The notes under the pieces are model-generated. The model was not told the DNA's origin and ran no database searches. It saw nothing but the letters and a program-made list of their open reading frames with translations. Positions 19,312 through 25,010 of a stretch of 30,315 nt of DNA are shown here, in pieces (the first letter of the stretch is position 1; each line of letters starts with the position of its first letter). This stretch comes from a virus: positions 1-30,315 of IMG/VR virus record IMGVR_UViG_3300033571_025255; one strand, given 5' to 3'. The position numbers and the translations under genes were made by a program.

Positions 19312-20691
19312 TTAATTTTGAGTGTTTTTTTCTTTTCTTTTGTTAATAATTTCCATAACTCGTTCTCTTTGAGCTTTTTCTTTTTGTTCCTCAAACCCTA
19401 GGAATGTTACTGAAGATTCTGTATCAATGACAAGCATTTCATTATCAAATCTACAATTTTCAAATATAACTCCGTCAGTACCAATTCTAGATTTAGTGAC
19501 AGCAATTGTTGCCAAACCAGCCTCTTTTTGCTGAAGTGTCTTTGCTACTGAAATGATTACGTGTCCAACTTGCGCTTTTTTAATAGAACCCCCCATTTGA
19601 TCTGTTGTAACAACTTCTGATGAGATTGAAGATCTATTACCTTGCGTAGCTGTCCACCCCACAATATTTAACTCATGACACATTGCCTCAAATCCTCGAA
19701 TAACTGATCCCTCACTTTTCCATTCATCTCCCAAATTTTTATCCGGAACAACACAATCGATATAGTCTAATAGGATCATATCTATTTTATTTCCCTCAGC
19801 AATCATTTTTCTAACTTGATTCTTAATCTGAAGCATTGTTACTGTATCAGATGGTAATTTTTTCAGAATCAATTTATTTTGCATCTTTTCTTTAATACCT
19901 ACCACAATATCCATAACTTCTTGCTTTCTATCTGAAAGGTCATCTGGTGAAATACCGGTCCACAAGGTAAAATGTTTTCTCTGAATAATCTTAGGGTTAT
20001 CTTCAAAAAAGATTTGAAGAACATTATATCCCAAATTATAAGCGTGGTTTCCAATTTTAGTTAAGAAGGTTGACTTACCAACACCTGTAGGTGCTAGTAT
20101 TACCCCGATCTCACCTTTTGCCAAACCTCCCTTTAGTAGTTTATCTAGTCCAGGAATACCCATAGATACTGGATGCCTGAAATCATCATTAAGTACTTCA
20201 TCAAGATTGTAAAAAACATCCTCAGATCCACGATCAATCTCACCAACCCTCAAAGCTTTAATAATAAGTTCCTCAACTTTATCATAGTTCTCAAATTCAC
20301 CTGAGTCGATAATTTTCTGAGCCCTAACGATAGCTTTTTGCATCTCCTGTTGTTTACAAAACTTAAGAGACTTTTCCTTAACAAAATTACTACCTTCTAA
20401 AGTAATCTCACTAATTTTTGTGATAGTATCAACTATCATTCTACTGAATAATTCACTCTCAACTTCTGACTTTGTTACCTGCACCAGAGTATCAAAAGAT
20501 GGGCTAGATTCATACTTTGAATAGTATTCTTTAATCATTTGCATAATGATTTTGAAATACTTATTTTCAAAGTAATTAACATCGATAACATCTATTATTG
20601 ATCTGGCAAAGTCCTTATCAATAACAATTTGATTTAGCAATTGAAGTTGAAAATTCTCTCCTAAATAATTAAAATTTTTGTCTGAACCCAT
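19312..20691 (-). CDS. gp41: Replicative DNA helicase, gp41/DnaB family
   Basis: A 459-aa hexameric 5'-3' helicase that unwinds the replication fork. The N-terminal half (1-150) is helical, like the DnaB/gp41 collar. The RecA-like C-terminal domain holds Walker A at 200-208 (APTGVGKST), an acidic DxxP-type element after it (FFEDNP, 228-233), Walker B at about 305-312 (MILLDYID), and a sensing Gln at 350 (TATQGNRSS). T4 gp41 is 475 aa, so length fits. The highly charged C-terminus ([19 protein letters not shown]) is typical of a flexible tail. It starts after a 28-base gap carrying a TATTTAT element and is followed closely by nrdB. No gp61-type primase is in this window, so it is presumably elsewhere. 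Confidence 0.93.
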
Positions 20692-20719: not shown

Positions 20720-21175
20720 TTAGACTTTCAAATTATAACCAAGGTAATCATATTCAAGTGATTCAGAATTTGAAAATATGTTTGTCATGCCTGACAAAAT
20801 ATTCTTCAATAGCGGCCTCAAGTCAACAGTATAACGTACCTTAGGAGGATAGAGTTTAGCATTAAATTGTCTGTGTGTGATGATCCTATCATCAACCTTT
20901 AAATAAAGGTTAAAGTTTTCATCATCATTAGTCATTGATGTGTTCAAAATTTCAGGGTCATCAATAATTTGGTCAGAGTTTTCAAGCAAATACTCAGTAG
21001 TCTTATTTTTCAATGAAACCTGGATCCCCTCAATGACTCTATTAATGTATTCGTATAGGTCATATGAATTTCTAGCATCGCTGTTATAATTCTTGACATT
21101 GAAGAATCTTTGTACAATGATTTTATCATTCAATGTAAGCAAAAATTCCATTCTAGCATTGTCTTGTTCTTTCAT
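20720..21175 (-). CDS. Hypothetical protein with an internal duplication
   Basis: A 151-aa protein I do not recognise. It consists of two similar units, residues about 10-53 and 87-130. Both run as a hydrophobic strand (FLLTLNDKIIVQR; LYLKVDDRIITHR), then FN-x-K-x-Y, then a Y/V-D-L motif and a helix of about 15 residues (YEYINRVIEGIQ; RPLLKNILSGMT). A fused homodimer or a two-site binding protein is plausible. It sits between RNase H and the helicase, one base after the RNase H... gene's neighbour in transcription order, and so belongs to the replication block, possibly as an accessory factor. No catalytic motif or zinc site is visible. ATG at 21175; no Shine-Dalgarno. Confidence 0.7.
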   Translation of the reverse strand: MKEQDNARMEFLLTLNDKIIVQRFFNVKNYNSDARNSYDLYEYINRVIEGIQVSLKNKTTEYLLENSDQIIDDPEILNTSMTNDDENFNLYLKVDDRIITHRQFNAKLYPPKVRYTVDLRPLLKNILSGMTNIFSNSESLEYDYLGYNLKV

Positions 21176-21176
21176 A

Positions 21177-22181
21177 TTATTTTTTTTTGTTTTTAAATTT
21201 TTCTTTTCTTGAAATTTTCATAAATGGTTTGAAAAAATAAACCCAAGCATTATCTGTTTTGGGTAGGAGCTTAAAAATACCATCCTCAACCATCATCTTC
21301 ATAAGATTTTTATAATCTCGCCCATCTGGGTCTAGATCCTCCTTATAATGGTCTTCAACGATTAATTTGACCTCATCACTAATAATAGGATTATCTAGGT
21401 CTATAATCTTCTCATTTATCACATAAAACTCATCCCCGTAAATTCCTGTTTTAGTCTTGCCAGTTAAGATATTTGCTAAAACCTTTCTAGATTTATTTTC
21501 TTCAAACAATTTTTCAGTTTTTTCTAAAATATCTGAAACTGAAACCTTTTTATCAAATAATTCCGGGAAAAATTTTAAAAGAGTTTCGGGGCCTAGACAA
21601 TATATTCCGTCAATATTGTCTGAATTGTCGCCACACAGTATTTTGTAAGGTTTAACATTATAGTTTGGTATCTCTAAAGTTTTAATTTTAACTTTATCAC
21701 CATACTTATAATATTTTTTCAATATTGGTGAATAAATAGTAGTTTGTTCTGAGCACAATTGTTGAAGATCGTTATCTGCTGATAAAATTACTTTGGTCTC
21801 ATCTTTAGATATTTGACAATAATATGCAATTAAATCATCAGCTTCACAATTTTCTAAAATTATTTGTCTAATAAAAACTTCCTCAAGATATTTTTTAATC
21901 CTGTTACATTGTTTATAAAAGGATTGTTCTTCTTCGTCAGTCTTGGACTTGCCTCGGTTTGTTTTATAATTAGCATATATCTTTCTACGGTTTAACCAGC
22001 TTTCCTCACCATCCCAAAAAACAACAACTTTATCAAAATTGTTTTCTTCAATTAACAATCTTATTGTACTCAAAAAATACCAAATAGCACCTATATGCTC
22101 ACCATTATGAAAATAGGTTTTCACACCATGAAAACCTATTTTCGCTAAATTATTACCGTCTACTAATAAAGTTTTATTCAT
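21177..22181 (-). CDS. rnh: RNase H / FEN-like 5'-3' exonuclease (T4 Rnh type)
   Basis: A 334-aa PIN/FEN-family nuclease, like T4 RNase H (305 aa), which removes RNA primers and flaps from lagging strands. The acidic metal-site residues are in the expected order: D8 (LLVDGNN), D57 (FWDGEES) with the adjacent basic arch residues (NRRKIYANYK), E113, D115 and D116 (CEADDLIAYY), D136 and D138 (SADNDLQQL), and D185 and D188 (GDNSDNIDGI, the helix-hairpin-helix region). I chose ATG at 22181; the frame has a GTG one codon earlier. ATG overlaps the stop of the methyltransferase gene by one base (TGATG), so the two are coupled. The C-terminus is very basic. Assignment is firm. Confidence 0.92.
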   Translation of the reverse strand: MNKTLLVDGNNLAKIGFHGVKTYFHNGEHIGAIWYFLSTIRLLIEENNFDKVVVFWDGEESWLNRRKIYANYKTNRGKSKTDEEEQSFYKQCNRIKKYLEEVFIRQIILENCEADDLIAYYCQISKDETKVILSADNDLQQLCSEQTTIYSPILKKYYKYGDKVKIKTLEIPNYNVKPYKILCGDNSDNIDGIYCLGPETLLKFFPELFDKKVSVSDILEKTEKLFEENKSRKVLANILTGKTKTGIYGDEFYVINEKIIDLDNPIISDEVKLIVEDHYKEDLDPDGRDYKNLMKMMVEDGIFKLLPKTDNAWVYFFKPFMKISRKEKFKNKKK

Positions 22182-23098
22182 CACAAATATGCATATATTA
22201 AACCAGCATCTGAAATGTCTGCCAAATTATCAAATTTGTACCCTAGTTTTTTAAGTTTTTCCTGGATAAAAATACCAATTATTTTTTTATGGTATTCTAC
22301 CACTATTTTTTTACATTTTAATAGGTTGTCATCAGTAATTGTAGTAAAAAGATCTAATTCACATCCTTCACAATCAACTTTTAAATAATCAATTGTAGTT
22401 AATTGATAATCACTAATTAATTTATTGATAGTTGTAGTGAAAACCTTTACTGTGTTTTCGCTTTCATTTGAAAGCGTACCTAAGATTGAATTTACTGCAG
22501 AAGATTCTGAAATTGAAAAATCTGCAACGCCTTCACAATCATAGATACCACAGTTTATAAGTTCAACATTTGGTAATCCACTAATATTGTCTTTTAAGCA
22601 GTCAAACACAGGTTTATATGGTTCTACCGATATAACTCTTTTAGCACCTTTTTCAACAGCATATTGCGTAAACATTCCATAGTTAGCTCCAATATCAACA
22701 ACAACGTCTCCAGGTAAAACTTTCACATTTTCACTATCATATAATTCAAGAACTTTTACTTCGATAAAGGTAAAGTACGGAGAATCACTATCTAGTGTTT
22801 TTAATTTAAAATCATGACCTAAAAAAGTATAAGGTATAACTTTATCAAACAAGATAAAATTAAAGTCACCAATATCACCATCAAAAACTAATCTAGTATT
22901 ACTAACATGTTTAACCATGCTAATCGGTAATCCAATATAATACTCTACATTTTCATGTAATTCAAATGTTGTGGCATACAAATTAAGGTTTGTTGTTAAA
23001 TCAATCCAACGGCATTTGCTTGTTACATTAGGCCCTTGATATTTAAAATATACAACACAGCCTAACTCATTTTTATCTAATTTTATTATTTCTATCAT
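22181..23098 (-). CDS. FkbM-family SAM-dependent methyltransferase
   Basis: A 305-aa protein. The C-terminal two thirds form a class I SAM methyltransferase of FkbM type: motif I at 135-141 (DIGANYG), the ribose-binding acid E159 after a strand (VISVEP), and the FkbM signature near 238-247 (YLKVDCEGCE), followed by VVEYH. FkbM enzymes typically O-methylate sugars or small-molecule hydroxyls. Residues 1-95 form a separate strand-rich segment of unknown role that may select the substrate. Its gene is coupled to RNase H by a one-base overlap and lies seven bases after uvsX, which is an unusual place for it. The substrate (host glycan, phage glycan, modified DNA or other) cannot be read from sequence. 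Confidence 0.85.
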   Translation of the reverse strand: MIEIIKLDKNELGCVVYFKYQGPNVTSKCRWIDLTTNLNLYATTFELHENVEYYIGLPISMVKHVSNTRLVFDGDIGDFNFILFDKVIPYTFLGHDFKLKTLDSDSPYFTFIEVKVLELYDSENVKVLPGDVVVDIGANYGMFTQYAVEKGAKRVISVEPYKPVFDCLKDNISGLPNVELINCGIYDCEGVADFSISESSAVNSILGTLSNESENTVKVFTTTINKLISDYQLTTIDYLKVDCEGCELDLFTTITDDNLLKCKKIVVEYHKKIIGIFIQEKLKKLGYKFDNLADISDAGLIYAYL

Positions 23099-23105
23099 TT
23101 TGCGA

Positions 23106-24104
23106 TTACATTATATCTTCTAGCATTTCATATGTTTTATCTTCATTAAATTCAATATCACCATTACCACTCAAAATTTCATTCCAATATTGTGAGAATT
23201 CTTTTTTGTAATTGTTAAGTGCTTCTGCAGTATCTTCAATATACCCTTGAGGTACTACAATTATTTTACCATCCTTAAACCCTAAACCATTAACATGGTT
23301 TTTTATAACAGAAATTTTAGTCCTAATAGCATATGCCACAGTTCTACCATTTTTTGTAGCTGTAATGTGATTAATACCGCTCTTCTTTTGGTTTCCAAAG
23401 AGGAACACTAATGATGATGCCAACCAAGCAGCTTCACCACCTTTAGCCTTAATTTCAGGTTGGCCCATAGGGTTATCTGGAAGCATTACCCAGGGTTGAT
23501 TAACAATAATCATACTATTATAGTATGGGTAATCTTCTTTTTTAGTTCTAGTTATCCTAGCATGAATTCCCATCCCAAGTTTGTCTGATAAAACTGAGGC
23601 GTTGTGTTGTTTACCTCCCTTACCTTCATAGGTCATCTTACAAGGTACTGAACCAATACTATCCCAAAGAAAAAGTAAAGAAAACGGAAGGTCACCTTTT
23701 TCTTGTGCATCAATTAGATCATTAATAAAGTCAGTAATCTGCTCAATATATTCAAAGCTATCATTAAAAATAAAATGGCCGTCCCACTCTCCATTAGCAT
23801 TTTTTTCAGCTTTTAAACCAAGTTGGACCGCATGTTCCCAATTCCATTTTCGTTCTGTAATTATAAAAACAGGTAGATGCCCTTTATTCTGAGCATCAAC
23901 AGCTGCCAATATCATTGCAGTTGTTTTAGATGTATTAGTATGCCCCAAAAACATATTTATGCCACCCATAACAGGCCCTGGCAAACCACAAGCATTATGA
24001 AATGCTTCTCCACAGTAATAATAATCTACCGCTTTATATTTAGTCGCTGACGAATATTTATTTTTAATATCAGCTATAGTTATTTCTTTTTTCTTTAACG
24101 CCAT
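23106..24104 (-). CDS. uvsX: UvsX/RecA-like recombinase
   Basis: A 332-aa RecA-fold strand-exchange ATPase, the phage counterpart of RecA used in recombination-dependent replication and repair. Walker A is at 54-62 (GHTNTSKTT), where the Gly normally before Lys is Ser; T4 UvsX also deviates there. A Walker B-like strand ends at D148 (LLFLWDSIG). The DNA-binding L2-like region around 219-227 (KAKGGEAAW) resembles the GGNAL segment of RecA, and the C-terminus is acidic. Length is a little shorter than T4 UvsX (391 aa), mainly at the C-terminal end. It follows gp32 across a 66-base gap with a strong hairpin and precedes the methyltransferase by seven bases. Confidence 0.9.
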   Translation of the reverse strand: MALKKKEITIADIKNKYSSATKYKAVDYYYCGEAFHNACGLPGPVMGGINMFLGHTNTSKTTAMILAAVDAQNKGHLPVFIITERKWNWEHAVQLGLKAEKNANGEWDGHFIFNDSFEYIEQITDFINDLIDAQEKGDLPFSLLFLWDSIGSVPCKMTYEGKGGKQHNASVLSDKLGMGIHARITRTKKEDYPYYNSMIIVNQPWVMLPDNPMGQPEIKAKGGEAAWLASSLVFLFGNQKKSGINHITATKNGRTVAYAIRTKISVIKNHVNGLGFKDGKIIVVPQGYIEDTAEALNNYKKEFSQYWNEILSGNGDIEFNEDKTYEMLEDIM

Positions 24105-24170: not shown

Positions 24171-25010
24171 TTAAAATGGGAAATCATCATCAGGATCAAA
24201 ATCAGCTTGCCTATCTGACATACCACTAGATTTTCCGCCCATAACAATGTCATCGGCTGAATCCCCATAAACATATTTGTTTAATTCTGAGTCCCAACGA
24301 GGTTTTTCTCCCTTAGCTACAGCTTCAAGATATTCTTCCGGCTTTTTAGAATAAACATCTTTCCATGTGAGTTCATCGTCAAGCCATTCTTTAGCAATAC
24401 TTTCATCGTCAGAAAGTTTGCTTTGATCGTCAAACATAATTGCTTGAATGAATGTATAATCTTTGTTTTTAGAAGTCTTACCTTTAGCAAGTTCAATAAT
24501 CAGGTCTCTACCTGTAAATGGATCTGTAATATCACCCTTTGCTTTGAAAATTGGAATAATTTTGTCAAGAGGACCCTCACCTTTATAGTTATGTTTAAAC
24601 CTCCAAAACTTAACACCGTCTTCTGGATGATCCCTATCAATAACTTTTATTACATAAAATTTTCGAGATTTATATTCCTTTGCAAGCTCTTTATCTGAAG
24701 CTTTTCCGGTGGCAGTGAGATCGTCATATACCTCATTAAGTGGTGAACGCTCATTATCATTTTTACCCGGATCATAGAGCTTTACATATTTACCATCTTG
24801 AAGAATTTCGTGAAACCACGCTTCAACAAATGGCGACTTACCATCTTTAGATGGGAGAATTCTAATTCGTTTTTGGGCCGAACTTTTACCCTCAGGCAAA
24901 ATCGCTGTGAAGTATTTCTTCATACGATCTTCCCTACTCATTTTAAATGATGATGTTGACTGTTTTGAATCTTCGTACTGTTGCAGGACTGAATCTAGAA
25001 TTGAACTCAT
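24171..25010 (-). CDS. gp32: gp32-like single-stranded-DNA-binding protein
   Basis: A 279-aa protein of the gp32 family, which coats single-stranded DNA and coordinates helicase, polymerase and UvsX. The N-terminal basic segment (SREDRMKKYFTAILPEG) and the core (IRILPSKDGKSPFVEAWFHEI) match the family, as does KFWRFKHNYKG. The zinc site of T4 gp32 (His plus three Cys) is degenerate: H67 is present, but the protein contains no cysteine at all, with KLYDPGKNDNERSPL in the place of the Cys motif. The C-terminus (residues 269-279) ends in FDPDDDFPF, which resembles the acidic tip of bacterial SSB, unlike T4 gp32. It has its own strong promoter candidate, and a hairpin follows it. The family call is good. 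Confidence 0.88.
   Translation of the reverse strand: MSSILDSVLQQYEDSKQSTSSFKMSREDRMKKYFTAILPEGKSSAQKRIRILPSKDGKSPFVEAWFHEILQDGKYVKLYDPGKNDNERSPLNEVYDDLTATGKASDKELAKEYKSRKFYVIKVIDRDHPEDGVKFWRFKHNYKGEGPLDKIIPIFKAKGDITDPFTGRDLIIELAKGKTSKNKDYTFIQAIMFDDQSKLSDDESIAKEWLDDELTWKDVYSKKPEEYLEAVAKGEKPRWDSELNKYVYGDSADDIVMGGKSSGMSDRQADFDPDDDFPF

Follow-up and report, generated by a model that had tools for sequence, protein, structure and literature searches.

An SSB-Ct-like C-terminal tip on the gp32-type single-stranded DNA-binding protein of a clade of uncultured T4-like phages

The gp32 gene and its surroundings

The window analysed here is the whole 30.3-kb stretch (30,315 nucleotides) of the virus record IMGVR_UViG_3300033571_025255. 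It carries gp25- and gp6-like baseplate genes and, on the minus strand, a block of genes in the order 75-aa protein, 232-aa protein, gp32, RecA/UvsX-like recombinase, FkbM methyltransferase, 5'-3' exonuclease, 151-aa protein, DnaB-like helicase, NrdB and NrdA. The features that matter for what follows are:

24171..25010, minus strand: gp32-type single-stranded DNA-binding protein (ATG start, 279 aa, no cysteine)
24735..24812, minus strand: decayed zinc ribbon of gp32, residues 67-92
24174..24263, minus strand: predicted disordered tail of gp32, residues 250-279 (pLDDT below 50 at residues 251-266 and 268-279)
24174..24191, minus strand: C-terminal tip DDDFPF of gp32, residues 274-279, resembling the bacterial SSB-Ct
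23106..24104, minus strand: RecA/UvsX-like recombinase (PHROG 97, 2e-10), the gene directly downstream of gp32 and a candidate partner of the tip
21177..22184, minus strand: 5'-3' exonuclease (Pfam, 1.4e-28)
20720..21175, minus strand: 151-aa protein found only in phages with the tip, a second candidate partner
19312..20691, minus strand: DnaB-like (gp41-type) helicase (PHROG 19, 9.5e-62)

A preliminary description of this DNA had recognized the protein as a gp32, and three lines of evidence bear this out. The match to the Pfam gp32 family (PF08804, E=4.3e-11) scores 43.7 bits (curated cut-off 26.8), two PHROGs annotated 'single strand DNA binding protein' (224 and 1192) also match, and the predicted fold is that of gp32. 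The AlphaFold2 model, built from 78 relatives, has a pLDDT of 79.8; its core is predicted well, its tail lies below 50, and the best PDB matches found with Foldseek (2a1k, 1gpc and 8gme, with E values between 1e-10 and 1e-9) identify the gp32 OB-fold core. The cores of RB69 gp32 (2a1k, 1.6e-10) and T4 gp32 (1gpc, 3.9e-10) head this list with a TM-score by target of about 0.65. A profile sequence search of the PDB gave no meaningful match, and the Pfam scan found no PF00436 SSB domain in the protein, which is thus not of the bacterial SSB type. The gene had been placed earlier at 24174-24821; it is real, but that interval covers only residues 64-279 (216 codons) and starts 63 codons late. The 63 N-terminal residues that it omits are also without cysteine.

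Close relatives of the window's gp32 come from metagenomes only, with at least 600 matches in IMG/VR. A tblastn search of 50,697 phage records had no match at E 1e-3, and relaxing the threshold to E 10 added only weak ones; a zinc-bearing relative (from the group that we call L093) had no match in the same records. No cultured member of the clade with the tip was found; when recombinase, baseplate and helicase are compared, Flavobacterium phage immuto and Microcystis phage Mel-JY01 are among the nearest cultured phages. A 134-kb relative encodes a Gp23 capsid protein, a prohead protease, PolB and helicases, which identifies it as a T4-like myovirus. Three contigs of 317-321 kb (L141, L143 and L144) carry a window-like gp32, indicating that the clade includes jumbo phages. 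The FkbM-type methyltransferase gene (22181-23098, minus strand) is an insertion between the recombinase and exonuclease genes, with a relative in only three of the 167 window-group loci among the matches listed, one of them the nearest relative, L001.

The C-terminal tip and the zinc ribbon

The protein ends in DFDPDDDFPF-stop, and the likeness of this end to that of bacterial SSB, pointed out in the preliminary description, turned out to reflect a strictly conserved C-terminus. Among the matches listed, every one of the 184 distinct relatives whose C-terminus could be read terminates in [DEN][LMF]PF (165/165 in the window group and 19/19 in the L092 and L093 groups), whereas shuffling the last 30 residues would give 0.6 such ends, which rules out a chance likeness. 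The -3 position is Leu in 164 of these 184 proteins. None of the 72 proteins of the sister clade ends in this way; their ends are FDDLFN-like and their tails are still acidic. All four Pro codons (CCA 106, CCT 34, CCG 23, CCC 18) and both Phe codons (TTC 131, TTT 50) are used at the tip, so it is the peptide itself that is conserved. Most tail positions near the tip vary among relatives while the tip is invariant. The protein thus carries an acidic-hydrophobic-Pro-Phe motif at a free C-terminus, on a tail that is predicted to be disordered. In the window group, whose tail otherwise varies, a DPQ motif 12-14 residues from the end is nearly invariant; the window has DRQ at this place (24207-24215).

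The preliminary description had also stated that the protein, being devoid of cysteine, cannot form the zinc ribbon of T4 gp32, whose ligands are His64, Cys77, Cys87 and Cys90 (PMC3012046), and this holds for the whole open reading frame. An alignment with T4 gp32 and zinc-bearing relatives shows that H67 is kept and that D80, S89 and N92 replace the three cysteines, within a ribbon frame that is still recognizable (YDPGKND..SPLN vs YCPAHND..CPLC). Among the matches listed, 153 of the 167 distinct proteins of the window's branch have no cysteine and the other 14 have a single one, which lies outside the ribbon in those inspected.

The two traits had been presented as coupled, and it is here that the earlier account fails. 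A complete His plus three Cys ribbon coexists with the PF tip in each of the 14 distinct L093-group proteins and in L262, and a partial ribbon is found in L092, L259, L260 and L261; loss of cysteines and gain of the tip as a single change is thereby ruled out. Conversely, both the ribbon cysteines and the tip are absent from cyanophage S-WAM2, whose gp32 has no cysteine at all, and from immuto and Mel-JY01. Intact-cysteine relatives without the tip had been named as the finding that would speak against the original proposal, and the outcome is mixed, since intact-cysteine relatives do exist, but the nearest of them carry the tip. The S-WAM2 protein further indicates that the His and three Cys are a T4 trait and not a family-wide one in PF08804. 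Parsimony requires four changes of zinc state on the core tree which, together with the other ribbon-less phages, makes cysteine loss an ordinary event that happened repeatedly.

In a tree of 67 proteins, those with the PF tip lie on one side of a single branch with a support of 100/97. A second tree, built without the tail and the ribbon, recovers this branch with a support of 100/99 and in 100% of bootstrap trees. This single group points to one evolutionary event and not to many independent gains, which would be superfluous where one branch suffices. As both zinc-bearing and zinc-less members have the tip, the simplest reading is that it came first and that the window's branch dropped its ribbon cysteines afterwards, in a loss unrelated to it. 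The zinc-bearing relatives mostly end in [FYLIMT]-[DE]-DLPF, and it is conceivable, comparing the sequences of the two clades, that only a short path separates the FDDLFN tip of the sister clade from the DLPF tip.

Hosts and putative partners of the tip

Bacteroidota are known for lacking Shine-Dalgarno sites. A Shine-Dalgarno core precedes none of 17 genes in the window and, in the same count, 1/29 in immuto; T4 and Mel-JY01 differ from both in using such sites. By clade, usage is 0-10% (background) in the PF-tip groups and 45% in the sister group. The hosts of the PF-tip phages are therefore probably Bacteroidota-like. The main SSBs of the Bacteroidales that were sampled end in DDLPF, DGDLPF or DELPF, with the same -3 Leu as most phage tips, and one zinc-bearing PF-tip member lies in a Bacteroidales MAG. 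However, the L092 protein, with its partial set of zinc cysteines, is encoded on a Prochlorococcus single-cell contig (AG-409-L21, QCKH01000004), a placing at odds with the other PF-tip relatives. The SSB of this Prochlorococcus genome ends in NDIPF, and tip and nominal host are therefore not matched in every case.

We give an even chance to the following explanation. The protein would be the SSB with which a T4-like phage replicates and recombines its DNA, with the gp32 OB-fold as its core, and the peptide that closes its disordered acidic tail would act in the manner of the bacterial SSB-Ct, docking putative readers, mainly of the host. A gp32 filament on phage single-stranded DNA would display many such tips, and these would occupy the pocket in which DNA-maintenance proteins hold the SSB-Ct, bring those proteins to the phage DNA and compete with host SSB. 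The likeliest receptors would be the host readers of its own DDLPF tip, of the RecO and PriA classes (RecO is reported to dock to E. coli SSB via the SSB-Ct; PMC7913777), and possibly a phage partner too. The recruitment of host SSB partners suggested in the preliminary description is thus plausible. Host readers are favoured because the phage tip closely matches host SSB tips, and phage readers because of the gene context and the precedent of phage HK620, in which the NDYPPF end of the SSB is required to recruit Sak4, a recombinase encoded next door by the same phage (PMC5928155).

This precedent leads to the principal competing view, which we consider possible but clearly less probable, that the tip docks a phage-encoded partner only, either the adjacent UvsX-like recombinase or the 151-aa protein as a mediator or helicase loader, its likeness to SSB being convergence. 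The C-terminal region of T4 gp32 likewise recruits phage proteins (PMC11551737), and the UvsX gene is the next one here, as Sak4 is in HK620. The 151-aa gene, moreover, is present in 95/95 of the PF-tip loci in which exonuclease and helicase are both seen, always in the gap between the two, and in 0/34 sister loci (among the matches listed). Its product matches nothing in Pfam or PHROGs that would name it, nor any PDB structure below E 0.08, and is modelled with a pLDDT of 88 as two similar beta-beta-alpha halves. The co-occurrence nonetheless amounts to one event on one branch, so that the protein is a candidate partner. The recombinase of immuto, 36.5% identical to that of the window, goes together with an FDDLFN end, and a UvsX of this kind thus needs no PF. 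Nor would a private partner require the last residues to match host SSB tips as closely as they do. Docking to the host has points against it too: immuto, a Flavobacterium phage with a shared core gene order and an FDDLFN end, shows that a Bacteroidota host demands no PF tip; the PF-tip phages have helicase, primase and PolB genes of their own and would not obviously need host replication proteins; the HK620 partner is phage-encoded; and the single PF group stands for one event. The absence of a PF00436 SSB from 20 large relatives and from immuto, together with the lack of Shine-Dalgarno use, would count in favour of host docking. The idea that a phage without its own primase borrows host DnaG through the tip is weakened by the DnaG-type primase domain seen in 11 of 15 large relatives.

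The tail could alternatively be chiefly autoinhibitory, its acidic end covering the single-stranded DNA groove until DNA displaces it, as proposed for T4 gp32 and T7 gp2.5, and the P-F forming part of this intramolecular contact. The C-domain of gp32 has been documented to close the protein through charge (PMC5892887) and the tail of the window protein is acidic, but acidity would not by itself fix Pro and Phe at the last two positions in 184/184 relatives (among the matches listed), the sister clade has acidic tails with another end, and no ordered docking of the tail is seen in the model (pLDDT below 50), though AlphaFold2 often misses such contacts; we regard this as improbable. Less plausible still is a decoy, with abundant gp32 soaking up host readers of the SSB-Ct (repair nucleases or defence proteins that sense SSB, for example) instead of putting them to use. 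Phage SSBs are known to trigger several defence systems (PMC13381803), which makes SSB-sensing a real selection pressure, but a decoy need not sit on the main SSB, and there is no direct evidence for one.

An extension of the SSB-Ct-like docking reading, bold and on balance unlikely, is that a whole clade of T4-like phages turned the gp32 tail into an SSB-Ct mimic once, before some of its members lost the zinc ribbon, and that the tip both joins the host SSB network and recruits the 151-aa protein as a new mediator or helicase loader.

Comparison with known single-stranded DNA-binding proteins

gp32 and bacterial SSB represent two unrelated ways of organising DNA replication and repair, each by means of a disordered acidic tail with partners of its own. 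The window protein shares the OB-fold core (1gpc, 2a1k in its predicted fold) and the acidic C-terminal tail of T4 and RB69 gp32, but is only about 20% identical to them in the structural matches, has H, D, S and N in place of the His and three Cys, and ends in DDDFPF instead of LDDLLNDL. What it has in common with the bacterial SSB-Ct (DDDIPF in E. coli, DDLPF in Bacteroidales) is a disordered tail with a free C-terminus, where acidic residues lead up to a hydrophobic residue, Pro and Phe; the bacterial tip, however, sits on a PF00436 SSB and that of the window on a gp32-type OB fold. The HK620 protein is also a phage SSB with an SSB-Ct-like end whose gene adjoins that of a RecA-type recombinase, but it has been characterised as distantly homologous to bacterial SSB, not to gp32. 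The SSBs of immuto and Mel-JY01, which belong to the sister clade, are, like that of the window, of the gp32 type, without ribbon cysteines and encoded in the order gp32-recombinase-exonuclease-helicase, followed in immuto by NrdB and NrdA as in the window; they differ by their FDDLFN-type ends and by having no 151-aa gene between exonuclease and helicase.

In the literature searched we found no published description of a gp32-type protein with an SSB-Ct tip. The tempting story in which the tip and the missing zinc ribbon belong together is corrected by the relatives, which separate the two. The natural swap of DDLPF for FDDLFN on homologous cores, within similar gene blocks, lets one ask what the tip decides. 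That a gp32 invariably bears the docking peptide of bacterial SSB suggests that the one set of partners can be linked up with the other.
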